A DNA stretch of 33,753 nucleotides, from positions 1 to 33,753 of the forward strand of contig JAACJQ010000090.1 of the NCBI GenBank assembly GCA_016879935.1, in the 5' to 3' direction. Position 1 is the first letter of the stretch. Each line of letters begins with the position of its first letter. The notes beneath the pieces are model-generated. The model saw nothing but the letters and a program-made list of their open reading frames with translations, was not told where the DNA came from and ran no database searches. This DNA comes from Archangiaceae bacterium. GTDB taxonomy: Bacteria > Myxococcota > Myxococcia > Myxococcales > Myxococcaceae. Below, piece by piece: positions 6,457 to 27,932 of the stretch. A program made the translations under genes and the position numbers.

Positions 6457-6466
6457 CGCCTCAGCG
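6451..6466. terminator. Palindrome CGCTGA-CGCC-TCAGCG spanning two convergent stop codons
   Basis: A perfect 6-bp stem with a 4-base loop. The left arm holds the TGA of the plus-strand gene and the right arm holds the TGA of the minus-strand gene. Its inner 14 bases (GCTGACGCCTCAGC) recur at 29458-29471, also across convergent stops. A bidirectional terminator function is possible, but no U-run is present. Confidence 0.3.
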
Positions 6467-8056
6467 ATTGGTGACGCTCACGTTCACGGCATTCGGCCAC
6501 ACGCTCGACCTGAGCTGCGCCTGATTCTCCACCGACAGGTTCGTGTACGAATACGTGCCGCTCGGCGCGAAGTTGCTGATGGTCTCGGTGCGCGAGTACC
6601 GCCACGTGCCCGGGGAAATCTCGGTGAAGGTGACTCCGGAGCCACCGCCCCAGATGTTGCCGCTGGGCCCGCTGAAGCTGCCGTTGAACCAGTTCACCGG
6701 CGCCTGCGACGTCGCCACGACGGTCAGCGTGATGACACCACCATCGAAGAGCGCCGAGGGTGTCGCCGTCACGCTCGTGATGACGGGCGGGCCGCTCGTG
6801 CGGGTGTTCGTCACGCTCACGGTCACCGGGCTCGGCCAGACCGCCGAGGTGAGCTGCGCCTGATTCTCCACCGACAGGTTCGTGAACGAGTACGTGCCGC
6901 TTGGTGCGAAGGGGTTGATGGTCTCGGTGCGCGAGTAGCGCCAGGTGCCCGGTGAAATCTCGGTGAAGGTCACTCCGGAGCCGCCGCCCCAGATGTTGCC
7001 GTTGGGTCCACTGAAGCTGCCGTTGAACCAGTTCACCGGAGCCTGCGACGTCGCCACGACGGTGAGCGTGATGACGCCGCCATCGAAGAGCGCCGACGGC
7101 GTTGCCGTGACACTCGTGATGACGGGCGGGCCGCTCGTGCGCGTGTTCGTCACACTCACCGTCACCGGGTTCGGCCACACCGCCGAGGTGAGCTGTGCCT
7201 GATTCTCGACGCTCAGGTTCGTGAACGAGTACGTGCCGCTCGGCGCGAAGGGGTCGATGGTCTCGCTGCGCGAGTAGCGCCACGTGCCCGGTGAAATCTC
7301 GGTGAACGTCTCGCCCGAGCCGCCGCCCCAGATGTTGCCGCTGGGTCCACCGAAGCTGGCGTTGAGCCAGTTCACCGGAGACTGCGACGTCGCCACGATG
7401 GTGAGGGTGATGACGCCGCCGTCGAACAAGGCAGAAGGCGTCGCGGTGGCGCTGATGATGACGGGCCGCGCTCCGACGCCCGCGTCACAGCCGACCGTAC
7501 ACACGGCTGCGCCTCCCGCCGAACCGCCACCGGCCGAGCCTCCGCCAGCAGCTCCGCCGCCCGTTCCCGACAGACAACGCCCACCCAGTGAGCCGCCGTC
7601 CACCGCTTTTGGAAACGCGGAGCAGCGATCGACGCACGCGCCACAGACACTACCGTTGGTGCCGCACTCAGCATCGAACACACCGAGCTGACAGACGCCG
7701 TTGGCGCAGCAGCCGGGGCAGGTCGAAGGGCCGCACGCTCCACTCGCGCCCCCCGCGGTGACGAAGCCCCCGCCCGCCGCGCCACCAGCCCTCGCCGCTC
7801 CGCCCCCTGCTCCCGACGAACCGCCGCCAGCCGCGAAAGATTGAACGCACTGCCCCAGCTGACAGGTGAGCCCCGACAGCGTGCAGTTCGAACACGCGGA
7901 GCCGGCGGAACCACACGCGCCAGGCTCGATGCCGCTCACGCACTGCCCCGACGAGTTGCAGCAGCCGACGCAGCTTCCCGGGTCACAGCCGCCGGCCTGC
8001 ACCCCCACGTTGCAGCCCGCCGCCATCAACACCATCACCACCAGCAGTCCGCGCAT
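6461..8056 (-). CDS. Lipoprotein with two Cys-rich modules and three 113-residue repeats
   Basis: 531 residues from ATG 8056, with GGGAG seven bases upstream. MRGLLVVMVLMAAGC is a lipoprotein signal (lipobox MAAGC). Two Cys-rich modules follow (about residues 22-65 and 100-145; CDPGSCVGCCNSSGQC and CGPSTCPGCCANGVCQLG), joined by Gly/Ala/Ser spacers. The C-terminal two thirds consist of three near-identical 113-residue repeats containing TPSALFDGGVITLTVVATSQ and EISPGTWRYSRTETI, which look like immunoglobulin-like or other beta-sandwich domains. It is most likely exposed at the cell surface, with the spacers holding the repeats away from the membrane. Adhesion or binding is a guess. A longer in-frame extension upstream of 8056 is Arg-rich and not credible. 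Confidence 0.85.
   Translation of the reverse strand: MRGLLVVMVLMAAGCNVGVQAGGCDPGSCVGCCNSSGQCVSGIEPGACGSAGSACSNCTLSGLTCQLGQCVQSFAAGGGSSGAGGGAARAGGAAGGGFVTAGGASGACGPSTCPGCCANGVCQLGVFDAECGTNGSVCGACVDRCSAFPKAVDGGSLGGRCLSGTGGGAAGGGSAGGGSAGGAAVCTVGCDAGVGARPVIISATATPSALFDGGVITLTIVATSQSPVNWLNASFGGPSGNIWGGGSGETFTEISPGTWRYSRSETIDPFAPSGTYSFTNLSVENQAQLTSAVWPNPVTVSVTNTRTSGPPVITSVTATPSALFDGGVITLTVVATSQAPVNWFNGSFSGPNGNIWGGGSGVTFTEISPGTWRYSRTETINPFAPSGTYSFTNLSVENQAQLTSAVWPSPVTVSVTNTRTSGPPVITSVTATPSALFDGGVITLTVVATSQAPVNWFNGSFSGPSGNIWGGGSGVTFTEISPGTWRYSRTETISNFAPSGTYSYTNLSVENQAQLRSSVWPNAVNVSVTNR
6464..7465 (-). repeat. Three in-frame tandem repeats of 339 bp
   Basis: Identical landmarks recur exactly 339 bases apart: the complement of CCAGATGTTGCC near 6651, 6990 and 7329, and the P-V-I codons at 6787, 7126 and 7465. 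Units are 7127-7465, 6788-7126 and 6464-6787, the last ending 15 bases early at the gene's C-terminus. The two C-terminal units are closer to each other (WFNGSFSGP) than to the first (WLNASFGGP), suggesting a recent second duplication or gene conversion. Confidence 0.95.
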
Positions 8057-8172
8057 CGAGGTGCTCCCGAACCAGGCGCGTCGCGCGCCGTCGAGCACTC
8101 TTGGAACCAGCGGGTGGAGATTATTGCCGCGCATGTCGCCCCTCGTGCCAGAGGAGCAGGTGAGCGCACAAG

Positions 8173-8484
8173 TCAGCGACGCAACAGGCGCGACAGGCCG
8201 TACACGATGGGCCCCACGGCAATGATGAACTTCCCGCCACCGGCCGCCGCGGCGAACGTCACCACCGTCACCAGCACGCCGCCCACGAGCCACAACAGCG
8301 CGACACCGGAGTCGTCGGAGGCCGAGCCGTCTTCGTGTTCGGAGCTCTGCCAGTCGAGGTCGCGAACGCAGATGCGCGCGAGGCCGGGTGACGCGCCCTC
8401 CTTCACGAGCTGCGTGGCGATGTCGTCGGGGTCGTGACCCTGCTGCTGCAGGTCGAAGGCGCGGTCGGCGAAGGTGGCTGACAT
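8173..8484 (-). CDS. Small membrane protein, function unknown
   Basis: 103 residues, with CGGAG about eight bases before the ATG. The first half is a hydrophilic domain (MSATFADRAFDLQQQGHDPD, then VKEGASPGLARICVRDLDW) that looks like a short helical domain of the kind found in small membrane-associated proteins. The second half has one or two hydrophobic segments (about 62-80 VALLWLVGGVLVTVVTFAAA; 86-98 FIIAVGPIVYGL) and ends in an Arg-rich tail, so it is an inner-membrane protein. It lies 116 bases upstream of the repeat lipoprotein on the same strand and is divergent from the DUF1554-type lipoprotein gene. Confidence 0.75.
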   Translation of the reverse strand: MSATFADRAFDLQQQGHDPDDIATQLVKEGASPGLARICVRDLDWQSSEHEDGSASDDSGVALLWLVGGVLVTVVTFAAAAGGGKFIIAVGPIVYGLSRLLRR

Positions 8485-8583
8485 GGTGTGGCTCCGGGTG
8501 AAGGCCGGCTCGTCTCGTGCCGGGGTTGCCTGCTATTGGGGGCGACCCGAGTTCTTCCGTCACGGTCTGGAGCACTTTCTTCG

Positions 8584-9363
8584 ATGCGCACCTCACTTCT
8601 GCTCGTTCTGCTGTGCGCTGGCTGCGGAGGCGGCACCGTGAACCCGCCGCCGGTGAACTGCGACGCCACGACGTGCACGGGCTGCTGCAAGAACAACACG
8701 TGCCTCGGTGGCGCCGAGCTGAACGCGTGCGGCTCCGGTGGTGGTCAGTGCGTCGACTGCGGGTCGAACCGGTTCTGCATCAACGCGACCTGTCAGGTGG
8801 AGCCGCTGCCGGCAGGTGCGAAGCTCGCCTTCGTCACACGCACCACCTTCAAGGGAAACCTCGGTGGCCTCGCCGGAGCTGATCAGCTCTGCGACGCCGC
8901 GGCGCAGGCGGGAACGTTGCCGGGGCGCTTCAAGGCGTGGCTCTCGACGAACCGCTGGGACGACGTGCGCAGCGTCGCCGTCTACGTGCACGCGGTCGAC
9001 CGCTTCACGAGCAACGGGCCCTGGTACCTGCCGGGCGTCGGCTCCAATGGCAGGCGCCTGCAGGTGTTCTCGAGCCGCGCGGCGATGCGCTCCGCGCCGC
9101 TCGTCGCCATCGACCGCAACGAGCTGGGCCAGCCGGTGAGCTCGTCGGGCCGCAACGTGTACACCGGCACGCAGGCGACCGGGCTCTCGCTCACCGTCGC
9201 GCGCTTCGGTCAGCCGGTCAGCACCTGCGACAACTGGACCTCGGCGGCGACTGGAGACCAGGCCACCATCGGTACGGTCTACGGCCAGGGTGGCGATTGG
9301 ACGGCGCTGAGCGACTCGCAGCGCTGCGACGCCGACCTCTCGCTCTACTGCTTCGAAGACTGA
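8584..9363 (+). CDS. Lipoprotein with DUF1554-like (lectin-like fold) domain
   Basis: 259 residues. MRTSLLLVLLCAGC is a short lipoprotein signal. A Cys-rich module (about 22-70: CDATTCTGCCKNNTC, then CGSGGGQCVDCGSNRFC) closely resembles those of the divergent repeat lipoprotein. The C-terminal domain (about 78-259) has KLAFVTRTTFKGNLGG, LAGADQLCDAAAQAG, FKAWLSTN and a terminal C-D-A-D-L-S-L-Y-C-F. This is the pattern of DUF1554, which is found in Leptospira and myxobacterial surface proteins and resembles C-type-lectin folds. Ligand unknown. The stop is one base from the stop of the convergent SRPBCC gene. Confidence 0.85.
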   Translation: MRTSLLLVLLCAGCGGGTVNPPPVNCDATTCTGCCKNNTCLGGAELNACGSGGGQCVDCGSNRFCINATCQVEPLPAGAKLAFVTRTTFKGNLGGLAGADQLCDAAAQAGTLPGRFKAWLSTNRWDDVRSVAVYVHAVDRFTSNGPWYLPGVGSNGRRLQVFSSRAAMRSAPLVAIDRNELGQPVSSSGRNVYTGTQATGLSLTVARFGQPVSTCDNWTSAATGDQATIGTVYGQGGDWTALSDSQRCDADLSLYCFED

Positions 9364-16202: not shown

Positions 16203-16784
16203 TCAGTCGACGACCAGCACCACACCTGCTCCCAGCAACGTCGACGGCGCGAAGCCGAACATGCGGCGGAAGGTGCGGGTGAAGTGGGCTGCGTCAGAGA
16301 AGCCGGCTTCGTGTGCTGCCTCGGTGAGCGTGAACCGACGAGAGAGCGCCTTCGCGACGAGTCGCATCTGCAGCCACCAACGCACGCGCACGAGGGGAAC
16401 GCCGAGGTGCTCGAGCACGAGGTGACGAAGCCGCGACTCCGAGAGTTCCACGGTGCGCGCGAGTGACGCGGTGGTGAGTGACGGGTCGCTCCGGAGTGCT
16501 CCGACACAGCGCCGCACGCGCCGGTCGATCGTCTCGTGTGCATCGGGCTCGACGTACGAGAAGGTGACTGACGCTCCGGGCGGACCCGTGACCTCGTGCA
16601 CCACGCCGGCGGGAATCACGACGCGTCCGCGCTGGCGGGTTCGCTTCAGCGTGACCGTCACGCCGTCGGTCGCTTCGACGATGCAGGTAACGCCACACGC
16701 GTGCCGACCGACGCCGAGCAGTGGTCCTTCGTAGTGCGCCGAGTTGGCGCCGACGCGAAGAATGGGGCGGCTCCGGTTCTGCAC
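16203..16784 (-). CDS. AraC-family transcriptional regulator
   Basis: 193 residues from GTG 16784. The N-terminal half (about 1-85) has the beta pattern of a small cupin-like sensor (HYEGPLLGVGRHACGVTCIV, RVVIPAGVVHEVTGPPG), shorter than in classical AraC. The C-terminal half (about 90-185) is the double helix-turn-helix: SLARTVELSESRLRHLVLEH, LGVPLVRVRWWLQMRLVAKA, then EAAHEAGFSDAAHFTRTFRR and MFGFAPS. These are typical AraC-family signatures. The start is uncertain because an in-frame start at 16877 adds 31 residues without domain character. Regulated genes are unknown; the inverted repeat upstream at 16958-17007 could be its site. Confidence 0.85.
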   Translation of the reverse strand: MQNRSRPILRVGANSAHYEGPLLGVGRHACGVTCIVEATDGVTVTLKRTRQRGRVVIPAGVVHEVTGPPGASVTFSYVEPDAHETIDRRVRRCVGALRSDPSLTTASLARTVELSESRLRHLVLEHLGVPLVRVRWWLQMRLVAKALSRRFTLTEAAHEAGFSDAAHFTRTFRRMFGFAPSTLLGAGVVLVVD

Positions 16785-17196
16785 GGTGTCAGCTTGCCTC
16801 GCCAGGTTGCCAAGCGGCGAGGCTTTGGCGTCGAGACTCTGAGAGCGCGAGGGGTGGCAGAGGGCGCTCCGAAGCATCGAGTGAGAAGCGCAGGTTCATG
16901 GAATCAGCCAGGCGCTCGAGACCAACGGCCCAGAGCAGGGAGGCCGGTGCCCCTCCAGGGAGGTGTAAACCTGTGGTCGGCAAACCGTCACCTTGTTTAC
17001 ACCCCCCGGGAAGGCGCCCCACCTCCCGGAGGCCGTTTGACCTCGGCTCTCCGGCCATTCCTTCCATCGTTCTTCACTCGAGGCTTCGGAGGGCGACCTT
17101 CACCACTGCTCACCCAGAGGCAGCAGTTCCAACGCTGGCGCGAGTTCCAGCCGTTGCGTTCAAGCGCCTCGGCCCGACCGAGAGCACGGTGCGCTC
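16785..17196. other. 412-base interval between divergent genes
   Basis: Separates the AraC-type regulator from the small membrane protein gene. It contains the inverted repeat listed below. I see no convincing reading frame: candidate frames on both strands are Arg/Ser-rich and lack ribosome binding sites. Its length and position suggest a regulatory region for both flanking genes. Confidence 0.5.
16958..17007. promoter_or_regulatory. Inverted repeat GGTGTAAAC / GTTTACACC, possible operator or stem-loop
   Basis: The 9-base arms (16962-16970 and 16995-17003) are perfect complements. After one mismatch three more G-C pairs extend them to 16958-17007. Arm centres are 33 bases apart, about three turns of the helix. 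The TGTAAAC core is AT-rich compared with its surroundings. It could be a two-site operator, for instance for the AraC-type protein encoded just downstream on the minus strand, or a long-loop RNA stem. Confidence 0.35.
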
Positions 17197-17553
17197 ATGC
17201 TCTTTCGTCTCCTGGTCCTGTCGGTCTCATTGCTCAATCTCGTGCCGCTCGTCGTGGCTGTCGCTCCGCGCTTCAGCGTCACGCTCTACGGACTGTCGCT
17301 CGACCAACCCGTGCTCGAGATCGTGATGCGACATCGCGCGGTGCTGCTCGGCTGCGTCGGTGTCGGTCTCGCGCTCGCCGCGTTTCGTGACGACTGGTGG
17401 CTGCCCGCCCTCTCGTTCGCGCTCGTGAGCAAGCTCGCGTTCCTCGCCCTGTGTCTCGTGCACGTGAACGAACTCGGACCGCTTCGTCGCGTCGCAGGCT
17501 CCGACGTCATCGCGTTACTCCTGCTCGCCGTCGCCGCGTTCGTCAGGCGCTGA
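17197..17553 (+). CDS. Small membrane protein with four predicted helices
   Basis: 118 residues. Hydrophobic segments lie at about 3-23 (FRLLVLSVSLLNLVPLVVAV), 47-62 (AVLLGCVGVGLALAA), 70-90 (LPALSFALVSKLAFLALCLV) and 102-115 (VIALLLLAVAAFV), with short polar loops (HRA, FRDDWW, HVNELGPLRR). This resembles small four-helix membrane proteins of unknown function widespread in bacteria. I cannot name the family. The last 11 bases overlap the end of the convergent symporter gene. Confidence 0.75.
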   Translation: MLFRLLVLSVSLLNLVPLVVAVAPRFSVTLYGLSLDQPVLEIVMRHRAVLLGCVGVGLALAAFRDDWWLPALSFALVSKLAFLALCLVHVNELGPLRRVAGSDVIALLLLAVAAFVRR

Positions 17554-19216
17554 CGGGCTTCGGCATCACGCGGTCGAGCACCGCCGTGAACAGCGCCACG
17601 CCTGCGCACCCGATGACGTTGTACCAGAGAAAGCCGATGTCACTCGCGAGCCAGGTCACGATGACGACGGCCTGCGCGAGCACGACCGCGAGGAACACCG
17701 GCGTGCCGCGAGCGGCCTTGAAGAAGAACCCGACGAGAAAGACGCCCAGCATCGGCCCGTAGAAGATCGACCCGAGAATGTTCACGGCCTGAATGAGGTT
17801 GTCGACCTGCGACGCGAACGCCGCGAACGCCATCGCCACCACGCCCCACATCACGGTGAACACCTTGCCCGCGCGCACGCTCTCGACGTCGGTGGCCTTC
17901 GGCTTCCACGTGCGCCGATAGAAGTCGACGACCGTCGTGGTGCCCAGCGCGTTCAGCGCGCTCGCCGTCGCCGACATCGCCGCGCAGAGAATCACCGCGA
18001 GCAGCAGCCCGACCAACCCCGGTGGAAAGCGCGTCATCACGAAGGTGAGGAACACGTAGTCGGCGTCTTTCACGTTCGCGCGCGGGCTCACGTCCTTGAC
18101 CAGCTTGCGAGCGTCGGCCCGCACGGTGCGCGCCTCGGCCTCGAGCGCTCGCAGCTGCGTCACCGTCGCGTCGTCGTGCTTCTGGAGCCACGTGTCGAGG
18201 AGCGCCCGCTTCTGCGTGAAGAGCGTCTGGTGCTTCTGCTCCAGCACCGTGAGCTCCGACGCCCGGGGCGACGCCCGCACCGTCTCCAGCTCGGGCGCGT
18301 TGAAGAACACCGGCGGCGCCTGGAACTGGAACGCCACGAACACGAACACGCCGACGAGCAGAATGAGCAGCTGCATCGGCACCTTCAGCAGCCCGTTGAA
18401 CAGCAGGCCCCAGCGGCTCTGCTCGAGCGACTCTCCCGAGAGGTACCGCTGCACCTGCGACTGGTCGGTGCCGAAGTATGCGAGCGCGACGAAGGTGCCG
18501 CCCGTGATGCCGGACCAGAACGTGTACCGGGTCTCGAGCCGCGGCGTGAAGTCGATGGCCTTCAGCTTGCCGAACACGCCCGCGATGCCGAACGCGTCTC
18601 GCACCGAGACGGCTTCGGGAAGGCTCGACACGATGAAACCGAACGCGAGCGCCATGCCGCCGAGCATCACGGCCATCTGCAGCTGCTGCGTCTGATTCAC
18701 CGCACGCGTGCCGCCCGACACCGTGTACGCGATGACGACGACGCCGATGACGAGGTTCGTCCACATCAACGACCAGCCGAGCACCGTCGAGAGGATGATG
18801 GCCGGCGCGTAGATGGAGAGCCCCGCTCCGAGCCCACGCTGCAGGAGAAAGATGAGGGCCGTGAGCTGCCGCGTCTTCAGGTCGAAGCGCTGCTCGAGGT
18901 ACTCGTACGCCGTGAGCACGCGCGTGCGGTAGTAGATGGGCACGATGGTGGCCGAGAGCACCACCATCGCGATGGGCACGCCGAAGTAGAACTGCACGAA
19001 GCCCAGCCCGTCTTCGAAGCCCTGCCCCGGCGTCGAGAGGAACGTGATGGCGCTGGCCTGCGTCGCCATGATGCTGAGCCCAATCGTCCACCACTTCGCG
19101 TCGGAGCCACCTCGCAGGTACGCGCCCGCGTTCTGCGCACCACGCGTCTTCCACACGCCGTACGCCACGATGGCGCCGATGGTGCCGATGAGCACCGCCC
19201 AGTCGAGCGTGCTCAC
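17543..19216 (-). CDS. Sodium:solute symporter (SSS family) with a helical cytoplasmic-type insert
   Basis: 557 residues, about 13 transmembrane helices. The family core is clear: LRGGSDAKWWTIGLSIMATQ and ASAITFLSTPGQGFEDGLGF near the N-terminus, AYTVSGGTRAV, the ALAYFGTDQSQVQRYLSGES signature, and ILCAAMSATASALNALGTTT near helix 8-9. An unusual charged helical insert (about residues 319-378; ELTVLEQKHQTLFTQKRALL onward) sits between membrane helices and looks like a short coiled coil. Last gene of the bacillithiol-type operon; its GTG start overlaps the stop of a 33-residue membrane peptide. The substrate is unknown. Given the neighbours, a sugar, sugar-thiol or amino sugar is a guess. Confidence 0.92.
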   Translation of the reverse strand: MSTLDWAVLIGTIGAIVAYGVWKTRGAQNAGAYLRGGSDAKWWTIGLSIMATQASAITFLSTPGQGFEDGLGFVQFYFGVPIAMVVLSATIVPIYYRTRVLTAYEYLEQRFDLKTRQLTALIFLLQRGLGAGLSIYAPAIILSTVLGWSLMWTNLVIGVVVIAYTVSGGTRAVNQTQQLQMAVMLGGMALAFGFIVSSLPEAVSVRDAFGIAGVFGKLKAIDFTPRLETRYTFWSGITGGTFVALAYFGTDQSQVQRYLSGESLEQSRWGLLFNGLLKVPMQLLILLVGVFVFVAFQFQAPPVFFNAPELETVRASPRASELTVLEQKHQTLFTQKRALLDTWLQKHDDATVTQLRALEAEARTVRADARKLVKDVSPRANVKDADYVFLTFVMTRFPPGLVGLLLAVILCAAMSATASALNALGTTTVVDFYRRTWKPKATDVESVRAGKVFTVMWGVVAMAFAAFASQVDNLIQAVNILGSIFYGPMLGVFLVGFFFKAARGTPVFLAVVLAQAVVIVTWLASDIGFLWYNVIGCAGVALFTAVLDRVMPKPVSA

Positions 19217-19314
19217 GCGAAGCTCCAGCTCAACAGCGCGAGCAGCAGCACCTCGAGCGCGAGCGCGCCGAGCACCACGACGTACGCTGCACCCCAGCGC
19301 CGCTCAGCTTCCAT
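19213..19314 (-). CDS. 33-residue single-helix membrane peptide between deacetylase and symporter
   Basis: ATG 19314 to TGA 19213 reads MEAERRWGAAYVVVLGALAL and EVLLLALLSWSFA: a short charged N-terminus, then one hydrophobic helix of about 20 residues. It overlaps the end of the PIG-L gene by 11 bases and the GTG of the symporter by a GTGA junction, so translation through all three is probably coupled. No strong ribosome binding site of its own. Small one-helix proteins encoded directly before SSS transporters are known as accessory subunits, which is the likely role. A chance frame cannot be fully excluded at this length, but the double overlap and the hydrophobic segment argue for a gene. 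Confidence 0.6.
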   Translation of the reverse strand: MEAERRWGAAYVVVLGALALEVLLLALLSWSFA

Positions 19315-21751
19315 GGTCGAGCAGGTTCGCGAAGAGCCGGTACGCGCCGGGAACGCCCGCAGGCAGCTGACGGAAGAACGAGAGGCCCGTGTAGATGAAG
19401 CGCCCCTTGCCGTGCCGCAGGAAGAGCAGGCTGCCCTTCGAGGGCTTCTCTCCGCGGTCGTTCATCGTGAGCGGCGTCTCGTAGTGCGAGTCCCAGGTGT
19501 TGGCGAAGTACAGCCCGCGCTCCTGCACCCAGCCGCCGAAGTCGTCGTCGCTCAGCGCGTTCGGAGCCTTCAGGAGCACGTGTGCGTCGCGGGTGACGAC
19601 GGCGTCTTCGTCGGTGACGCGGTCTTGCGAGAGCTCGAACGGCAGCGGACCGATGGTGGCCGGCACCGAGCTGAGCCAGTTCTTCGTGTTGTACTGGGCG
19701 ACGAGCGTGCCGCCGTTCTTCACGTACGCCATCAGCCGCTCGTACACGGCCGGCAGCTTCGGGTTCACGTTGTACGCGCGCACACCCACGACGATGGCGT
19801 CGAAGCGCTCCAGGGCCGAGGTGCGCAGCGCTTCGTCGGTGAGCAACGTCACCTCGTAGCCGGCCTGCGTGAGCGCCGCGGGCACGTCGTCACCGGCGCC
19901 GACGATGTAGCCGACGCGCGTGGTCTTCCCTCGACGCAGGTCGACCCGCAGCAGCTTCACCTGCGCCGCCGTCAGCACCGTCTGAATCGGAATGTGCGCG
20001 TACTCGACGCGGGTGAGCGTCTTCGCCGGCGCTCCATCGAGCAGCACCGAGAAGCTCCCCGTCGTCGGAGCCGTCTTGCTCGCGGGCTTCACCTTGAAGG
20101 CGACCTTCGCCTCGGTGGTCTTCTTCTCGAGCGTGTACGGCGCGGCTGCCGGCTCGCAGACGAAGCCAGCGGGAACGTCGAGCTTCACCTCGCCACGCTG
20201 CGCATCGGCGTTCGCCGTGAGCGTCACCTCGACGGTCTTCGCGTTCAGGTCGGTGAAGACGAGCAGCTCGGCGTTCGCGCGGGCGACGACGGGCGGGAGC
20301 ACTTCGATGGGCCGATGACGTTCTCCAACGGTCGGGTCGACCCATCGAAACGTCGCGGGCCGACGCAGAGAGAACGTGTGGCCCGCCGACGAGAGCCGGT
20401 ACTCCACCATGAAGGGAGACGGCAGCTCGGGTGCGCCGATGGGCTGCGTCGAAGCGACGCCCCAGGTGCCCTTCTGCGGCGGCAGGTCGAGGAAATATGG
20501 ACTCGAAAGCGACGCAGCGACGTCGAGCTCCACCGACAGCTTCGCCGGCTTGCCACGCTCGAGCATCGTTCCCGGCGTGAGGGACGTCGCCGCAACGGTC
20601 ACTGCGTCGAGCGTGATGGGTGTTCCCGAACGTTCGAGCGCCATCACGTCGAGCTTCAGCTTCGCGCCCGGCACCACGCTCGTCGTCGCCGCGCTCGCCT
20701 GCACGAAGAGCCCCGCGCAGTTCGCGATGAGGTCGGTGAGCTGGGTCAGCTTGTGCTCCTTCCACGGGTTCGCCGGCATCGCGCGCAACGCCTCGAGCGC
20801 CAGCAGCAGCGTGGGAACCGACTTCGCCGGAGCGTCGACCTTGAACTCGGCCGTCGCCTTCTCGACGAGCTGCGCGAACTTCTCGGTGCCGGCGACGCGC
20901 TTCCAGCTCGTGTCGAGCCCTTCGAAGAGCGACTTCTTCGCGGGGTCTCCATCGAGTGGAGCGAAGTACTCGACGCTGCCTTCGTGCACGGGCGCGGCGC
21001 CGAAGCCCTGGCTCTTGTGCATGCTGCGGCTGGTCGCGGCGAGCTCTCCGTACGAGAAGCCGAGCAGCGGGCTGAACTGGCTCGAGTCCCACGTGACCGA
21101 ACCTTCGGGCGGCTTGAAGGCCGGGTCGGGCGCCCACGCGTTCCACACGATGCGCTTCGCCTGCCAGACCTGAACGCGGTCGAGCTGCTCGGGGTGAAAC
21201 GTCGGATCCGCCGCGGCGCGAAACGCGAGCACCGCCAACTTCGCCGAGGCCGTGTGGTGGCCGTGCGTGGTGCCCGGCTCGGGAGAGAAGCGCGTGATGA
21301 TGAGGTCGGGCCGCAGCGAACGAATGACGAACACCGCGTCGGCCAGCACGTCGTCGGGAATCGAGTCGGGCTTGCCCGCCCAGATGGCCATCGTCTCGTC
21401 GACGCTCTTCGAGTACCCGAAATCGCGCGCGCGCGTGAAGTACTGCTCCGCGCCGTCGACGCGGCGTGCGGCGAGCAGTTCCTGGGTGCGAATGACGCCG
21501 AGCAGCGGGCCGAGCTCGGAGCCGATGAGGTTCTGGCCGCCTTCGCCGCGCGTGAGCGAGAGGTACGCCGTGCGGAACTTCATCTCGTTCGCGAGCGAGC
21601 CGAGCAGCCGCGTGTTCTCGTCGTCTGGGTGCGCGGCGACGTAGAGCGCGGTGCCGACGACGGAGAGTCCCTTCAGGTCGTTGAGCAGCTGCGCACCATC
21701 GCGAGCCTGGGCCGGGGCAGAGAGGAGCAGGGAAATCATCAGGGCCTTCAT
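19304..21751 (-). CDS. Large exported PIG-L/LmbE-type deacetylase with C-terminal beta and amidotransferase-like domains
   Basis: 815 residues from ATG 21751, with GAGG five bases upstream. MKALMISLLLSAPAQA is a signal peptide. The PIG-L/LmbE domain (about 30-280) has the zinc motif AAHPDDEN (His 41, Asp 44) and the second motif THGHHTAS (about 163-170), so the active site looks intact. A middle beta-rich region (about 350-590) precedes a C-terminal domain with a class I amidotransferase-like fold (about 605-815; RVGYIVGAGDDVPAALTQAG, FDAIVVGVRAYN). PIG-L enzymes remove acetyl groups from GlcNAc conjugates; BshB does this in bacillithiol synthesis but is only about 230 residues and cytoplasmic. 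This one follows bshA with an ATGA overlap. It may process an exported GlcNAc compound, or replace BshB if the signal is not cleaved. Confidence 0.88.
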   Translation of the reverse strand: MKALMISLLLSAPAQARDGAQLLNDLKGLSVVGTALYVAAHPDDENTRLLGSLANEMKFRTAYLSLTRGEGGQNLIGSELGPLLGVIRTQELLAARRVDGAEQYFTRARDFGYSKSVDETMAIWAGKPDSIPDDVLADAVFVIRSLRPDLIITRFSPEPGTTHGHHTASAKLAVLAFRAAADPTFHPEQLDRVQVWQAKRIVWNAWAPDPAFKPPEGSVTWDSSQFSPLLGFSYGELAATSRSMHKSQGFGAAPVHEGSVEYFAPLDGDPAKKSLFEGLDTSWKRVAGTEKFAQLVEKATAEFKVDAPAKSVPTLLLALEALRAMPANPWKEHKLTQLTDLIANCAGLFVQASAATTSVVPGAKLKLDVMALERSGTPITLDAVTVAATSLTPGTMLERGKPAKLSVELDVAASLSSPYFLDLPPQKGTWGVASTQPIGAPELPSPFMVEYRLSSAGHTFSLRRPATFRWVDPTVGERHRPIEVLPPVVARANAELLVFTDLNAKTVEVTLTANADAQRGEVKLDVPAGFVCEPAAAPYTLEKKTTEAKVAFKVKPASKTAPTTGSFSVLLDGAPAKTLTRVEYAHIPIQTVLTAAQVKLLRVDLRRGKTTRVGYIVGAGDDVPAALTQAGYEVTLLTDEALRTSALERFDAIVVGVRAYNVNPKLPAVYERLMAYVKNGGTLVAQYNTKNWLSSVPATIGPLPFELSQDRVTDEDAVVTRDAHVLLKAPNALSDDDFGGWVQERGLYFANTWDSHYETPLTMNDRGEKPSKGSLLFLRHGKGRFIYTGLSFFRQLPAGVPGAYRLFANLLDHGS

Positions 21752-22818
21752 GGAGTCCTCGTGAGGCGGCGGTAGTGCGCCTCCCACTGGTCGACGATGG
21801 GCGACAGCTGGAAGCGGGAGACGGCGGCGTCGCGCGCGGCCTTCGACATGGTTCGGTGCAGCGGGGCGTCGTCGAGCAGCGTTCGTGCGCTCGCGGCCAT
21901 CGCCGCGACGTCTCCGACGGAGTGCAGAAAGCCGTTCACGCCATGGGTGACGACCTCGGGCAGCCCACCCACGTTCGACGCGATGACGGGAACGCCGCAG
22001 CTCATCGCTTCGAGCGCCGCCAGCCCGAAGCTCTCGAGCTCACTCGGCAGGAGGAACACCGCGCCGCGCTGGAGGTGTGGAGCGACGTCACGACACTCGC
22101 CGAGCAGCGTCACGCCACGCACGCCGTCGCGACGAATGACGTTCTCGACGTTCACGCGTTCGGGTCCATCGCCGAGCAGAAGCAGTTCGTCTGCACCGCT
22201 GCGCGCATGAATCGCGAGCACGTCTTCGATGCGCTTCACCGAGCGGAAGTTCGAGTTGTGCACGAGCACGCGGCCAGCCGGAGCACCCGGCGTGAAGCGC
22301 GTCGTGTCGACGAAGTTCGAGAGCACCTGCACGTCGACGTCGGCGAGCGAGGTCGCCTTCAGGGCGAGGAACTTCGATGGTGCGGTGACGAGCTGGGCGC
22401 GCCGAAGCGCGTGTCGAACCATCGGCGCGTAGGCCTGCTCAGCGCCGAGCGTCAGCACGTCGGTTCCATGCACCGTCACCACGAGCGCGGGAGCCTTCCG
22501 GCCCAGCACCTCGCCCGCGAGCGCCGCGCTGACCGCGAAGGGCAGGGCGTAGTGCACGTGCACCACGTCGAGCTCGAGTCGCGTCAATGTGGAAGCCAGC
22601 GCGAGGCCGAGATCGCCCGAGGGCAACACGGGATGCGTCGGAACGCCGACCTCGTGCACCGTCACGTTCTTCGCGTCGCCTAGCCGAGGCGGTCGCGCAG
22701 CAGCGATGAAGTGAACGTCGTGTCCGCGTTCGGCGAGCGAGAGCCCGAGCTCCGTCGCGATGACGCCGCTGCCGCCGTACGACGCGTGACACACGATGCC
22801 GATGCGAAGCCCGCTCAT
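21748..22818 (-). CDS. bshA: N-acetyl-alpha-D-glucosaminyl L-malate synthase
   Basis: 356 residues, family GT4. It joins GlcNAc from UDP-GlcNAc to L-malate, the first step of bacillithiol synthesis. The N-terminus LRIGIVCHASYGGSGVIATE, with VHVHYALPFAVSAAL (about 86-100) and LVVTVHGTDVLTLG (112-125), follows Bacillus BshA closely. LVHNSNFRSVKRIEDVLAIH (185-204), LLLLGDGPE (212-220) and the EX7E motif in ESFGLAALEAMSCGVPVIAS (Glu 262 and 270) form the UDP-sugar site. The ATG overlaps the bshC stop and the stop overlaps the PIG-L start, both as ATGA. Cytoplasmic. Confidence 0.95.
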   Translation of the reverse strand: MSGLRIGIVCHASYGGSGVIATELGLSLAERGHDVHFIAAARPPRLGDAKNVTVHEVGVPTHPVLPSGDLGLALASTLTRLELDVVHVHYALPFAVSAALAGEVLGRKAPALVVTVHGTDVLTLGAEQAYAPMVRHALRRAQLVTAPSKFLALKATSLADVDVQVLSNFVDTTRFTPGAPAGRVLVHNSNFRSVKRIEDVLAIHARSGADELLLLGDGPERVNVENVIRRDGVRGVTLLGECRDVAPHLQRGAVFLLPSELESFGLAALEAMSCGVPVIASNVGGLPEVVTHGVNGFLHSVGDVAAMAASARTLLDDAPLHRTMSKAARDAAVSRFQLSPIVDQWEAHYRRLTRTP

Positions 22819-24302
22819 GTGAACTCCGGCGAGAGCGTGATGACCTCGTGGCCGAACGGAACGACGCGCGACTCGACGAGCTTCACGAACGCCTCGATGC
22901 CGAACGACGCGAAGAACCCAGCGGCGCCGAGCACCCGCTCCTGCGGCTGACCGTTCGGAAACAGCGCGCGCTGCAGTCGATCGACCCGGCCCGCGAGCAC
23001 CTCGTCTTTCGTGAGCCGCTCCCGGTTCAGCCGGGCCCCCAGCCGATTCGCCGCCCGCGCGATGGTCTTGCGCGTTCGCTCCACCGCGTCGTCGACGCCT
23101 TGCACGCTCGAGAGCACCGGCTCGATGGCTGCGAGCAACTGCTGCTCCACGTCTTCGGTCGTGCCCCTGGGCGCCAGCTTTCGAAGCAGTGTCTCTCTCG
23201 GCACTTCCACTTCCGCGGGCGTGAGCCCCAACGTCTCGAGCAACGCCTTCGGCCGCGCCTCGACCACGCGAAACCGCGCGCGCGGCATCACCATCGGCAT
23301 CGAAAGCCCGAAGTGCGAATAGAGCGGAGCCAGCTGCGCGAAGTAGTTCAGCTCGCCCGGGCCTCCGACGATGGCCGCCGTCGGCAACAACGTGTCTTGA
23401 ATGATGGGCCGCAGCAGCGCCGAGCTGCTCACACAGAGTGGATCCTCCGGCAGCTTCGCCGACGCCTCCGCCCGAAACCGTGCGCCAGCTCGGCCATCGG
23501 GATGAATGAACGTGAGCGCCGAATCACGAACGCGCACCTGCACGTCGAAGCCCGCACGCTCGAGGTCGTCGCTGCGTTGCTGGAGCACTCGCGTGATGAC
23601 GTCACACTCCGCGAGCGCTCGTTCGTGCACGGAACGCGCGACCCTCGCGAGCACCTCGTCACGCGGGTCGAGAATGACGAGCGACGGGAACAGCTCCGAC
23701 AGCACGCCAGCAAACGCGGTCACCCAGGTGGCTTCGGGCCGGTAGTGCCGCGTGAACAGCGCCGAGACCTCGTCTGCGTGCGGCCACCCATCGAGGGCAG
23801 CTCCCAGCGTCGAGAGCGCTTCATCGACCCCCGCGCCCAACTGCACCGACGACATCGACGCGCGCTCGACGTGCGGCGAGGCGAGCGAGAGCTTCGTCAG
23901 CGCTCCGTCTCTGCCGTGCACGACCGTGTGAGCAATCTCGTCGAAGTCGTGGTCTTCACTCTGCAACCAGAAGACAGGCACGCACTCGAGCGCGCGCGCC
24001 GTCACGACCGCCGTGGCTGCTTTGTAGAGGGAATACAGCGGGCCGAGGAACAGCCCGACCTGCTGTCCCGTCACCACGACCGGCGCGCCACCCGCGAGCG
24101 CGTCGAGCGACGTCTCACGCGCTGACGTCAACGGTCGTCGCGCCGCCTGTGCCCTCAGCGCCGAGACGACCTCGGCCTTCACCCCGCGCGCACGGGCCTG
24201 CCGAACGAACTCCGCCCGTCTCGATGGGTGTCGAAACCCGTCATCGAGAAAGCGAAGGGCGCCCGGCTCGGCCTTCAGGAACGCGGGGGAAAAGGCCGAC
24301 AT
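22815..24302 (-). CDS. bshC: Bacillithiol biosynthesis cysteine-adding enzyme
   Basis: 495 residues, slightly under the usual 510-540. BshC adds cysteine to GlcN-malate in the last step of bacillithiol synthesis. Family hallmarks are VVVTGQQVGLFLGPLYSLYK (75-94) in the nucleotide-binding region and VPVFWLQSEDHDFDEIA (108-124). LLRPIIQDTLLPTAAIVGGP and GELNYFAQLAPLYSHFGLSM follow in the centre, then a C-terminal coiled coil (about 390-450) with a terminal FASFGIEAFVKLVESRV. It starts seven bases after the DUF2911 gene and overlaps bshA by four bases, so it belongs to one transcription unit with both. Confidence 0.95.
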   Translation of the reverse strand: MSAFSPAFLKAEPGALRFLDDGFRHPSRRAEFVRQARARGVKAEVVSALRAQAARRPLTSARETSLDALAGGAPVVVTGQQVGLFLGPLYSLYKAATAVVTARALECVPVFWLQSEDHDFDEIAHTVVHGRDGALTKLSLASPHVERASMSSVQLGAGVDEALSTLGAALDGWPHADEVSALFTRHYRPEATWVTAFAGVLSELFPSLVILDPRDEVLARVARSVHERALAECDVITRVLQQRSDDLERAGFDVQVRVRDSALTFIHPDGRAGARFRAEASAKLPEDPLCVSSSALLRPIIQDTLLPTAAIVGGPGELNYFAQLAPLYSHFGLSMPMVMPRARFRVVEARPKALLETLGLTPAEVEVPRETLLRKLAPRGTTEDVEQQLLAAIEPVLSSVQGVDDAVERTRKTIARAANRLGARLNRERLTKDEVLAGRVDRLQRALFPNGQPQERVLGAAGFFASFGIEAFVKLVESRVVPFGHEVITLSPEFT

Positions 24303-24309
24303 CGACGAC

Positions 24310-25140
24310 TTACTTGCCCTTCCAGTCGGTCAGCGCCTTCTTCACGTCGGCCGCGTAGAAGAAGCCCTCGGGCTTCACCTGGCCCAGCGTGTTCGCCTTC
24401 TCGGCGAGCGGCAGCGCCTCCTTGAACTTGCCCTGACCCGCGAGCGCCTGCGCCTTCACCCACGTGTTGAGCCACGTCTCGGCGATGGCGATGGACTTGT
24501 CGGCGAAGGCGAGCGCGTTCGCGAAGTCCTTCTCCTCGAGGTAGTAGCGCGCGGCCTGCGTCATCTGCGCCGACGGGTTCTCGGCCATGGCCTTGATGTT
24601 GGCGGCGGCCTGCTCGGCGGTCTTCAGCTTCACCGGCAACGAGACGCGAACCTTCTCCCACTCGAGGTCGACGCTCGCCGTGTCGTTGGTGAAGTTCGAC
24701 ACGAGGTACGCGAGGCGCTCCCGCGCGGCGATGGCCTGTGGCTTCACGGCGACTCGCACCAGGTCGTTGCCTCCTTTGTACTCGTCGCTGCCCCAGAGGT
24801 CGTTCACCTTGCTGAGAATGAGCGTCCACGACGAGGCGCCGGGAATCGTGAAGAAGCCGTACGTGCCCGCGGGCACCTGCGTCTCGCCGATGACGACCGG
24901 CATGCTGAACGTGATGGTGGTGTTCTTGTTCGCGCCCGCGCGCCAGACCTTGTCGAGCGGCACGAGCCCGCCCCAGATCTTGCGGCCCTTCACGGCGGGG
25001 CTGCTGTAGTCGACGGTGATGGTGGTGAGGCCCGCGGTCTGCACGACCTTCGCTTCAGGGCTGAGCGCCGGCAGCTTCAGCTGGGCGAAGGCAGAGACGG
25101 CAGAGAGACACGCGACGAGAACGACGAGACGAAAAGACAT
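24310..25140 (-). CDS. Exported DUF2911 protein with TPR-like tail
   Basis: 276 residues from ATG 25140, with GAGGGG upstream. Signal peptide MSFRLVVLVACLSAVSAFA. The DUF2911 domain (about 20-180) shows the usual run: VDYSSPAVKGRKIWGGLVPL, DKVWRAGANKNTTITFS, VPAGTYGFFTIPG, WTLILSK and WGSDEYKGGNDLVRV. The last 90 residues form helical TPR-like repeats (AARYYLEEKDFANALAFADK). DUF2911 has no settled biochemical role to my knowledge. It is the first gene of the run DUF2911-bshC-bshA-PIG-L-micropeptide-symporter, with a seven-base gap to bshC, so it shares their expression and may act in the periplasm with the exported deacetylase. Confidence 0.85.
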   Translation of the reverse strand: MSFRLVVLVACLSAVSAFAQLKLPALSPEAKVVQTAGLTTITVDYSSPAVKGRKIWGGLVPLDKVWRAGANKNTTITFSMPVVIGETQVPAGTYGFFTIPGASSWTLILSKVNDLWGSDEYKGGNDLVRVAVKPQAIAARERLAYLVSNFTNDTASVDLEWEKVRVSLPVKLKTAEQAAANIKAMAENPSAQMTQAARYYLEEKDFANALAFADKSIAIAETWLNTWVKAQALAGQGKFKEALPLAEKANTLGQVKPEGFFYAADVKKALTDWKGK

Positions 25141-25218: not shown

Positions 25219-27777
25219 TCAGAGTGCTGCCATCTGCTCACCACACAGGTGCGCGAGCGCCATGATGGTCCACTGCGGGTTGATGCCGGCGCAGTCGGGG
25301 AACAGCGACCCGTCGCACACGCGCAGGTTGTCCATGCCGCGCACGCGGAAGTCGGCGCCCACGGGGCCAATCGCGTCGTCGGTGCTCATGCCGTTGCCGC
25401 CCTGCGGGTGGCCGGTGCCGACGACGAGGTCACGCAGGTCTTTCAGCTGCGTCTCGTACGCCTTCAGCTCGTTCGCGTCGGAGACGACGATGCCGTGCGC
25501 CGTCGGCATGATGAGCTCGTTGATGGGCTCGGGGTTGCGGTCGTCCATCAGCGCGCGGGCAATCACGCCGTGGCCGTGGTGGAGGCGCGAGAGGTCGTCG
25601 AGGCCGATGGGCAGCTGCACCTTGCCGTCGGCGTCGACGGTGCCCGAGGCGAGCGTGGCGACGAGCGGCGCGACCACCGCGAAGTTGCGGTAGTTCTGCA
25701 TGCGCGCCTGGTGCACCTCGAGGTACCCGGGCAGCACCATCGCGTGCGCGGCCGGCGGGTTGAACCACGACTCGATGACGAAGCGCGGCCCCGGCTCGTT
25801 CGGCCAGAAGAAGTGCGAAATCTGAAGCGAGCCGTACGACTGAATCGGCTCCTGCAAAAACGCGAAGACGGGCGCGCCGATGTTCGCCGAGAGCCGCTTG
25901 CCGATGAGCCGGTGCGCGAGGCCCGAGCGCAGCAACGCCGCCGACGACTGAATCGGGCCGCACGAGACGACGTACTCCTTCGCCTTCACCGAGAGCGTCT
26001 GCGAGCCGTCGCCCACCGCCACCTGCGCGCCCGTCACCTTCGTGCCCGACAGCTCGAAGCGGTGCAGCCGCGCGAGCTCGATGACGTCGAGGTTGCCCGT
26101 CTCGAGCCCTTCTTTGAGGTGCACCTGCAGGCTGTTGCGCTTGGCCTCGTATGAGCAGCCGAGGTTGCAGTACCCGCAGCCGCGGCAGGTCGAGCGCTTG
26201 ATGTTCACGTTGCATTCGTAGAGCCCCGGCACGTTCGGCAGCGCGGGCGGGTGCTTCGCCACCGGGCCCCACGCCTGCTCGAGGTACGAGAGGGCCGGGT
26301 TCAACCGGGCTCCAGGCGCGAGCGCTTCACTCGCGGGAATGATGCCGAGCTCGGCTGCCACCGCGTCGTACGCGCGGTTGAGCTCGCTCTCGCTCACGGG
26401 GAAGCCGACGTTCGCCCAGCGCTGGAAGATGGGCTTCGGCAAGCGGAAGCACACCGCGTTGTTGTGCAAGCCACCACCACCGACGGCGCGCGCCTGCAGC
26501 ACGGTGATGTTGCGGTACTTCGCGGGGTCGACCTTCGGGCGGCCGACGTCGAGCGCGTTCTGCAGCCCGCCCATCGCGTACGTGCGTGAGAGGCCGTCGA
26601 TTTCGCCGCTCGAGAACGAGGGTTCGTGGTGGTACCGGCCCGCCTCGAGCAGACACACCTTCTTGCCCGCCTTGGCGAGGCGGTTGGCGAGCAGGCTGCC
26701 CGCGACGCCCGAGCCCGCGATGAGCACGTCGTACTGGCCCACCGGCTTCTGCTTGATGGCGAGCTTGAGGGAGCCGGGGCCAGGCGACGTCGGCGCGCGC
26801 ACGTACCCGATGGAGGTGTCGACGCTCGGGCACGAGTAGTACGTGGCCATCAACACCACGTGCAGCGAGTGCGCCGCAGAGCGCAGGTCGCGCTCGAGCA
26901 CCGTGTTCACCGGGTTGTTCAGCACGTCGCGAACCACCTGCCGCAGCTTCGTCGCGTCGAGCTGACCGAGCGCCTGACCGACGAGCGTGTCGACCGCCGC
27001 GCCGACGACGTTCTGCAGCAGCGCGCCCAGGTCGATGGAGGAGTTGGCGAGGTACTTCTCGAGCTGCTCGATGACCTCGGCCGGCGTCGCCACCTTCTGC
27101 CCGGGAATGTAGACGTCGAGCAGCAGGCTCACGAGCAGCTGCTGGTGCCAGAGAATCGAGCGGCTGCCGGAGAAGAAGAGCGGCACCACCGAGTACACCT
27201 CGGAGAGCCGCGCGTTCATGAAGCCCAGGAAGTCCTGCTGGGCGAGCTTCGTCTCGAACGGCGACGCCGAGCCCGGGAACTCGAGCGAGCCGAGCTGGTC
27301 CATCAGGTCGGGCAGCGCGACGTGCAGCTCTCCATCGGCGACGACTTCTCCGCGCGAGAGGTCGCTCACCGTCACGCTCAGCAGGGTCGAGAGGTCGCCG
27401 AGCGCGTCGAGCGCCTGCACGGCTCCGTCAGCGCGCAGCTGCTTGAAGCCCTTGAGCAGGTACGGCGCTCCGCCCGGGCCGGTGAACTCGATGTTGAACT
27501 CGAACTCCTGCTCGCGCCGGCTCGGCGTCGTGGGCCGGAACATCTCGATGGTGCCGCCGGTGATGCTGAAGCGCCGCGGAAACAACCCGTCTTTCCACTG
27601 CACCGTTCCGCCCGAGACCTGACAGACGTGGGCCGGGCCCGCGATGAAGGCGTTGAGCGAGCCGATGACCTGCGTCGTCGAGAACGCGAACGACTCGACC
27701 GAGCCATTGGAGCGGCGTGTCACCTGGCCGCGCATCGCTTCGAGAACACGAACTCCGACGGCGTTCGAGATGGGCAT
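25219..27777 (-). CDS. GMC-type FAD oxidoreductase fused to a large N-terminal domain
   Basis: 852 residues from ATG 27777. The first 340 residues form a separate region with no signal peptide; it has beta sequence near the start (CQVSGGTVQWKDGLFPRRFS) and a helical middle. I do not recognise it. The rest is a GMC oxidoreductase: FAD motif YDVLIAGSGVAGSLLANRLA (about 347-366), the ARAVGGGGLHNNAVC loop, GHPQGGNGMSTDDAIG and a C-terminal CAGINPQWTIMALAH. A cluster STCRGCGYCNLGCSYEAKRN near residue 530 (C-x2-C-x2-C-x3-C) is ferredoxin-like and also occurs in some alcohol- and sterol-oxidising GMC proteins. The substrate is probably a hydrophobic alcohol or sterol, by analogy only. It stops 78 bases before the DUF2911 gene. 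Confidence 0.88.
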   Translation of the reverse strand: MPISNAVGVRVLEAMRGQVTRRSNGSVESFAFSTTQVIGSLNAFIAGPAHVCQVSGGTVQWKDGLFPRRFSITGGTIEMFRPTTPSRREQEFEFNIEFTGPGGAPYLLKGFKQLRADGAVQALDALGDLSTLLSVTVSDLSRGEVVADGELHVALPDLMDQLGSLEFPGSASPFETKLAQQDFLGFMNARLSEVYSVVPLFFSGSRSILWHQQLLVSLLLDVYIPGQKVATPAEVIEQLEKYLANSSIDLGALLQNVVGAAVDTLVGQALGQLDATKLRQVVRDVLNNPVNTVLERDLRSAAHSLHVVLMATYYSCPSVDTSIGYVRAPTSPGPGSLKLAIKQKPVGQYDVLIAGSGVAGSLLANRLAKAGKKVCLLEAGRYHHEPSFSSGEIDGLSRTYAMGGLQNALDVGRPKVDPAKYRNITVLQARAVGGGGLHNNAVCFRLPKPIFQRWANVGFPVSESELNRAYDAVAAELGIIPASEALAPGARLNPALSYLEQAWGPVAKHPPALPNVPGLYECNVNIKRSTCRGCGYCNLGCSYEAKRNSLQVHLKEGLETGNLDVIELARLHRFELSGTKVTGAQVAVGDGSQTLSVKAKEYVVSCGPIQSSAALLRSGLAHRLIGKRLSANIGAPVFAFLQEPIQSYGSLQISHFFWPNEPGPRFVIESWFNPPAAHAMVLPGYLEVHQARMQNYRNFAVVAPLVATLASGTVDADGKVQLPIGLDDLSRLHHGHGVIARALMDDRNPEPINELIMPTAHGIVVSDANELKAYETQLKDLRDLVVGTGHPQGGNGMSTDDAIGPVGADFRVRGMDNLRVCDGSLFPDCAGINPQWTIMALAHLCGEQMAAL

Positions 27778-27873
27778 GTGTGTTTTCCCCCGCGTGAAGA
27801 GGCGCGAACCGTACCGCGCGGCGTGCCCACCCGAACGGAGGAAACGGCAGACGAAGGTCAGGTCAGTGCAGAA

Positions 27874-27898
27874 GTGCCTCGGCGTCTTCGAGGGGCAC
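27874..27898 (+). other. Hairpin upstream of the tRNA-like unit
   Basis: GTGCCTCG and CGAGGGGCAC enclose GCGTCTT. Eight pairs form if two G of the right arm bulge out. It lies 34 bases before the tRNA-like 3' half on the same strand and could be part of a larger structured RNA. Read on the minus strand it would be in the leader of the GMC oxidoreductase gene. Confidence 0.4.
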
Positions 27899-27932
27899 GA
27901 CACGCCCGGCCGAGCAGGCCCCACACGCACTT

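Follow-up and report, generated by a model that had tools for sequence, protein, structure and literature searches.

Bacillithiol genes of a myxobacterium share an operon with an exported PIG-L amidohydrolase, a one-helix membrane peptide and a sodium/solute symporter

We analyzed a stretch of 33,753 nucleotides (nt), here called the window, which is contig C441 (JAACJQ010000090.1) of the genome of an Archangiaceae bacterium (GCA_016879935.1; 9.53 Mb, 445 contigs, 95.1% complete). It contains an operon in which the bacillithiol genes bshC and bshA are followed by genes for an exported PIG-L amidohydrolase, a 33-residue membrane peptide and a symporter of the SSS family. A gene for a DUF2911 protein precedes them. 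The occurrence of bsh genes together with the exported PIG-L protein, the micropeptide and the importer in several phyla suggests an undescribed extracytoplasmic step of thiol metabolism. Our preferred reading, to which we assign a probability of about one half, is that the unit combines bacillithiol biosynthesis with an exported branch, in which a two-part Na+ symporter recovers the product of an exported N-acyl-glucosamine-malate amidohydrolase. The gene content, the overlaps, the export signal, the intact metal site and the linkage to bsh genes were observed computationally and are described below.

Among the low-molecular-weight thiols of bacteria, bacillithiol has been described as the one that predominates (PMC12719100). 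Outside Firmicutes there has been little study of how it is turned over, exported and recovered, and several of the lineages with BshA and BshC presented here have no recognizable BshB. The module of enzyme, micropeptide and symporter is a candidate, open to experiment, both for a step in the periplasm and for the deacetylase that is missing. It also adds a probable small subunit to an SSS subfamily and gives a functional lead for DUF2911. Searches of mainly open-access literature found no paper joining bacillithiol, BshB or PIG-L with a symporter or with Bacteroidetes; a search combining PIG-L deacetylase, symporter and Bacteroidetes returned no paper naming PIG-L.

Organization of the operon

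Six genes on the minus strand were confirmed at or very near the positions given in an earlier reading of this DNA (the original prediction). They and their main features, in which GlcNAc stands for N-acetylglucosamine, aa for amino acids and TM for transmembrane segment, are as follows.

24310 to 25140, minus strand: DUF2911 protein, 276 aa, signal-peptide-like N-terminus, beta-sandwich and TPR-like domain; probable first gene of the unit (PF11138, 170 bits)
22815 to 24302, minus strand: bshC, cysteine-adding enzyme, 495 aa (TIGR03998, 344.5 bits; PF10079 and PF24850)
21748 to 22818, minus strand: bshA, GlcNAc-malate synthase, 356 aa, ATGA overlap with bshC (TIGR03999, 367.3 bits)
19304 to 21751, minus strand: exported PIG-L amidohydrolase, 815 aa, ATGA overlap with bshA (PF02585, 44.4 bits)
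21704 to 21751, minus strand: predicted signal peptide of the PIG-L protein, MKALMISLLLSAPAQA (from the sequence and the hydrophobic N-terminus of homologues; a heuristic, not SignalP)
21620 to 21634, minus strand: AHPDD motif of the PIG-L protein, residues 40-44, with ligands H41 and D44 and base D43 (invariant in 46 homologues; LmbE-like rule, PMC4101496)
21254 to 21265, minus strand: HGHH motif of the PIG-L protein, residues 163-166, with third metal ligand H166 (H163, G164 and H166 invariant in 46 homologues)
19213 to 19314, minus strand: 33-aa single-helix membrane peptide, overlapping the PIG-L gene by 11 nt and the SSS gene by 4 nt (equivalent open reading frame elsewhere, invariant W7 and Y11)
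17543 to 19216, minus strand: SSS-family Na+/solute symporter, 557 aa, GTG start (TIGR00813, 229.8 bits)
18059 to 18310, minus strand: helical insertion of the symporter, about residues 303-386, in the TM7-TM8 loop, periplasmic by homology (60 aligned homologues)

The junctions from the DUF2911 gene to the SSS gene are, in order, a gap of 7 nt and overlaps of 4 (ATGA), 4 (ATGA), 11 and 4 (GTGA) nt. Translation of the last five genes from a single message is therefore almost certain. The 4-nt ATGA overlap of bshA and the PIG-L gene was present as predicted, and the DUF2911 gene, which had been placed at the head of the unit, is its probable first gene. The operon had also been called fused; the genes share one operon and there is no gene fusion. 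No sigma-70-like promoters were found in the region, terminator-like matches there were close to the shuffle mean, and an Rfam search of the window gave no match.

BshA (cut-off 273.7 bits) and BshC (cut-off 265.8 bits) both exceeded the NCBIfam cut-offs of the families listed above, so that both genes are as clear as had been claimed. In having co-directional BshA and BshC equivalogs the operon is the same as the BshA-BshB-BshC systems of Bacillus subtilis, Staphylococcus aureus and Chlorobaculum. It differs from them in that the genome has no BshB1 or BshB2 equivalog and that the operon adds the exported PIG-L protein, the micropeptide, the symporter and the DUF2911 protein.

Linkage of the module to bacillithiol genes

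Among 155 Myxococcota genomes the exported PIG-L protein was found in 53 and BshC in 52. Both were present in 52 genomes, PIG-L only in 1, BshC only in none and neither in 102 (Fisher p = 9e-41; the genomes are drafts, and this and the following p value are not corrected for phylogeny). In the single genome with PIG-L only (G140) the contig ends just past bshA. Four genera (g1, g5, g11 and g14) were mixed, with species that have both proteins and species that have neither, which indicates that PIG-L and BshC were gained or lost together. In 29 further Myxococcota genomes the two lay in one cluster with the SSS gene, and nearly always with the DUF2911 gene, except at contig breaks. These clusters had several gene orders and orientations.

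A similar coincidence was observed in 199 genomes of Acidobacteriota (PIG-L in 102, BshC in 113, both in 90; Fisher p = 2e-21). Two of the Acidobacteriota loci (L253 and L254) had DUF2911, bshC, bshB1, bshA, PIG-L and SSS genes in one cluster, although gene order is shuffled. BshA was above cut-off in 11 of the 12 Acidobacteriota genomes that have PIG-L without detected BshC, and was absent from the four controls, which have neither PIG-L nor BshC (G396, G397, G110 and G128). The module therefore tracks the enzyme that makes GlcNAc-malate still more closely than it tracks BshC. In several Acidobacteriota (L262-L265, L270 and L277-L280) with BshA, an SSS/PIG-L pair and undetectable BshC, the BshA gene stands alone.

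One scan of genome contigs gave 80 best relatives, mostly from Bacteroidota, with some from Acidobacteriota, Myxococcota, Ignavibacteria and Eisenbacteria. The SSS gene follows PIG-L in 69 of the 80 loci, across several phyla; bshA and bshC are adjacent only in the Myxococcota loci. One of the loci, L116 of Myxococcus xanthus, contains DUF2911, bshA, bshB1, bshC, PIG-L and SSS genes. BshC was found somewhere in all 24 tested genomes of such loci, once below cut-off. The original prediction had pointed to similar neighbourhoods in Bacteroidota. The grouping of PIG-L, SSS and DUF2911 genes does exist there, but bshA and bshC are located elsewhere. The coupling of PIG-L, peptide and symporter to bacillithiol genes was otherwise borne out by the coincidence with BshC in Myxococcota and Acidobacteriota and by the shared clusters, and the PIG-L/SSS link is conserved across genomes.

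Plasmids had only distant PIG-L homologues (about 30% identity over the full length), in Alphaproteobacteria (L110, L111 and L112), which we used as a contrast and did not count as members. They are cytoplasmic and have no signal peptide. Their neighbours are a sugar ATP-binding cassette (ABC) importer, a ROK regulator, an argininosuccinate-lyase-like protein and, in two of the three, a sugar kinase; no bsh genes were found in the annotated stretches around them. Speculatively, the lyase-like protein could cleave a malyl glycoside to give sugar and fumarate, which would hint that the wider family handles compounds of the glucosamine (GlcN)-malate type. The cluster itself may serve the catabolism of such a compound. 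No relatives of the exported PIG-L protein were found in the viral contigs searched.

The exported PIG-L protein

The match of the protein to PF02585 (44.4 bits) exceeded the cut-off of 28.2. Its metal motif is complete (H41, D43, D44 and H166) by the HXDD plus H rule for LmbE-like enzymes (PMC4101496), and all residues of AHPDD and HGHH but H165 were invariant across 46 homologues. A hydrophobicity heuristic (not SignalP) found a signal-peptide-like N-terminus in 107 of the 108 homologues. The prediction of an 815-residue exported PIG-L protein with intact zinc motifs thus agrees with these data, which support its exported location.

The AlphaFold2 model (predicted local distance difference test, pLDDT, 90.6; predicted template modelling score 0.89) has a PIG-L domain (about residues 30-282), Ig-like beta domains (about 348-602) and a GATase1/ThuA-like domain (609-815). 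Residues 30-282 adopt a Rossmann-like PIG-L fold and matched MshB (4ewl) with Z 20.9 and a root-mean-square deviation of 3.0 over 231 residues, diacetylchitobiose deacetylases with Z about 18 and B. subtilis BshB with Z 17.2. Residues 609-815 matched GATase1/ThuA-like domains (Z about 16). Foldseek matches to transglutaminases and ciliary proteins were due to the Ig-like domains and were set aside.

The protein has the metal site and the fold of MshB and BshB deacetylases. It differs from them in being about 20% identical in the aligned domain, in its extra domains and signal peptide, and in standing beside BshB1 in many genomes. It scored 18.8 bits for BshB2 and 34.3 for Mca (cut-offs 195.25 and 277.15), did not reach the MshB cut-off, and BshB1 was not among its matches at E 0.001. 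By analogy it may resemble the Mca and Bca amidases, as an LmbE-like metallohydrolase with a putative N-acyl-glucosamine thiol substrate whose amino sugar would be reused. Unlike them it is exported, 815 aa long and equipped with Ig-like and GATase-like domains, and its score lies far below the Mca cut-off.

The exported PIG-L protein and BshB

No protein above the NCBIfam cut-offs for BshB1 (182.5 bits) or BshB2 (195.25 bits) was found in the 95.1%-complete source genome, whose PIG-L proteins score far below them. Besides the exported protein there are two: a cytoplasmic protein of 258 aa (contig C67) and a lipoprotein-like protein (contig C161), both well short of the BshB cut-offs. Both have orthologues (65-68% and 52-54%, respectively) in G110 and G128, two congeners in which BshA, BshC and the exported PIG-L protein are all absent, so neither seems dedicated to bacillithiol. 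We therefore judged it unlikely that the small C67 protein is a dedicated BshB. The claim that a small cytoplasmic BshB is missing stands, in the sense that the C67 protein is small and cytoplasmic but not of the BshB type, and there is no separate bshB in the genome.

It had further been proposed that the exported protein takes the place of BshB. As a general rule this was rejected, since BshB1 was above cut-off in 41 of the 52 Myxococcota genomes with BshC, all 41 of which also have the exported PIG-L protein. In every mapped Myxococcota cluster that has it, bshB1 adjoins bshC. The remaining 11 genomes, the source genome among them, had no BshB1 above cut-off. In four genomes (G012, G127, G140 and G148; 92-98% complete) the exported protein was the only PIG-L protein found. 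The exported protein is thus normally additional to BshB, and may be the sole PIG-L-type deacetylase in some lineages. In G152 (locus L090) bshC and bshA are spaced by just 18 nt with no bshB1 between them, while the other sampled g3 species with BshC have bshB1.

The micropeptide, the symporter and the DUF2911 protein

A short one-helix peptide is encoded directly before the SSS gene in 94 of 99 PIG-L/SSS pairs. The homologues are about 30-60 aa long with invariant W7 and Y11, and the ratio of nonsynonymous to synonymous polymorphism (pN/pS) was 0.09-0.66 by group (0.09-0.15 in two Flavobacteriaceae groups), which indicates that the peptide is under purifying selection. A chance open reading frame was rejected on these three grounds, and the predicted 33-residue membrane peptide is real. 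Thirty members gave no consistent match in Pfam and NCBIfam, where peptides this short score poorly. In some Chitinophagales (L119, L123, L131, L136, L139 and L145) an extra glycine-rich hydrophobic peptide of ~50-70 aa is encoded between PIG-L and the micropeptide.

Small proteins encoded beside SSS symporter genes are known, namely DUF4212/TIGR03647 and DUF485. The likeness is that of a short membrane protein coded beside an SSS gene; the micropeptide differs in its length of about 30-60 aa and its one helix, and its 30 members gave no consistent match to those families.

The transporter passed TIGR00813 (229.8 bits, cut-off 184), belongs to the PF00474 family and is the SSS transporter that had been predicted. 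SMVT and the SiaT-type symporter 5nv9 are among the solved structures nearest to it. It shares its family, by TIGR00813 and PF00474, with SiaT, PutP and vSGLT-type symporters, and differs from them in the one-helix peptide encoded upstream, which gave no consistent match in Pfam or NCBIfam, and in a conserved helical insertion, about 75 residues long, that separates TM7 from TM8. The insertion is common to 60 aligned homologues (segment length 96-147). In PutP the outer (periplasmic) entrance is gated by the loop between core TMs 7 and 8 (PMC7918813). We infer that the micropeptide is a subunit of the symporter and that the insertion contacts the PIG-L protein.

Nearly all of the sampled Myxococcota carry the DUF2911 gene in the cluster. 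In 50 of the 80 loci, from several phyla, it lies no more than about 10 kb from PIG-L; it is a regular companion of the module. The AlphaFold2 model of the protein (pLDDT 90.2) is a beta-sandwich with a TPR-like region at residues 186-276 (Z 15). A search of solved structures by sequence gave nothing useful for it.

Proposed mechanism and alternative explanations

LmbE-like enzymes cleave N-acyl-glucosamines, and Mca and Bca release the amino sugar for recycling (PMC4101496). In the proposed scheme BshA makes GlcNAc-malate and BshC joins cysteine to GlcN-malate, both in the cytoplasm. In the periplasm the exported PIG-L protein would hydrolyze the N-acyl bond in a conjugate of GlcN-malate, which may be bacillithiol, its disulfide, S-conjugates or GlcNAc-malate. 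The symporter with its one-helix small subunit would then bring the product, which is most likely GlcN-malate, back into the cell, where BshC would use it again. This would resemble conjugate-amidase recycling by Mca and Bca, but outside the cytoplasm. Substrate, product, direction of transport and the role of the micropeptide are what we infer here. The overlapping genes, the co-occurrence of PIG-L and BshC, the shared clusters and the MshB/BshB-like fold and metal site support this exported branch, and the linkage supports a place of the module in bacillithiol metabolism.

Several points weigh against it. The PIG-L protein scores below every BshB, Mca and MshB cut-off, and linkage indicates membership of a pathway, not chemistry. 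No exporter gene was recognized in the cluster. In 12 Acidobacteriota genomes the module was present and BshC was not detected. In the Bacteroidota sample BshC was near universal (216 of 218) and PIG-L was found in 83 of 218, so that the module is optional and co-occurrence is uninformative there. Our broader proposal is tentative: that bacteria of at least three phyla run a periplasmic thiol cycle by means of a two-part Na+ symporter and an exported amidohydrolase for N-acyl-GlcN-malate, and that this cycle would be the only PIG-L-type route to GlcN-malate in lineages without BshB.

The same genes could serve nutrient scavenging, with PIG-L trimming environmental GlcNAc saccharides (chitobiose-like), the symporter importing the amino sugar, and the bsh link reflecting only shared GlcNAc metabolism or regulation. 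The similarity of the fold to diacetylchitobiose deacetylases, the cytoplasmic alphaproteobacterial homologues beside sugar ABC importers and kinases with no bsh genes in the regions seen, and the separate position of bshA and bshC in Bacteroidota are consistent with this. However, it is hard to explain in this way why the module coincides with BshC or BshA in two phyla, mixed genera among them, and why operons are shared, and no chitinase or glycosidase was recognized in the cluster; we consider scavenging unlikely. A biosynthetic detour, in which GlcNAc-malate exits, is deacetylated by the exported PIG-L protein as the BshB of these bacteria, and returns through the symporter as GlcN-malate to BshC, would suit the 11 Myxococcota genomes without BshB1, the four whose sole PIG-L is the exported one, the G152 arrangement and the tracking of BshA by the module even where BshC was undetected. 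Against it, BshB1 and the exported protein are kept together in 41 Myxococcota genomes and in the Acidobacteriota L253 and L254, a GlcNAc-malate exporter was not recognized, and the cytoplasmic C67 protein could moonlight as the deacetylase. We find the detour improbable as a full account, and possible in the lineages free of BshB1.

PIG-L and the symporter might also act on an envelope or secreted GlcN-malate derivative of the BshA product, and not on bacillithiol itself. The 11 of 12 Acidobacteriota genomes with BshA and undetected BshC fit such a role, but nearly all Myxococcota carriers of the module and 90 of 102 Acidobacteriota carriers also have BshC, and a divergent BshC was possibly missed (one Acidobacteriota BshC scored only 182 bits). 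This seems very unlikely to us. The exported branch of bacillithiol metabolism remains the reading that we prefer.

Other genes in the window

A GMC-type oxidoreductase with an N-terminal extension of ~390 aa (25219-27930, minus strand) is encoded on the strand of the DUF2911 gene, 78 nt upstream of it, and an AraC-type regulator (16203-16877, minus strand) lies just downstream of the SSS gene, on the same strand as that gene. At 6461-8596 (minus strand) the window encodes a protein of tandem near-identical repeats of about 100 aa, 'ITSVTATPSALFDGGVITLTVVATSQAPVNW'.

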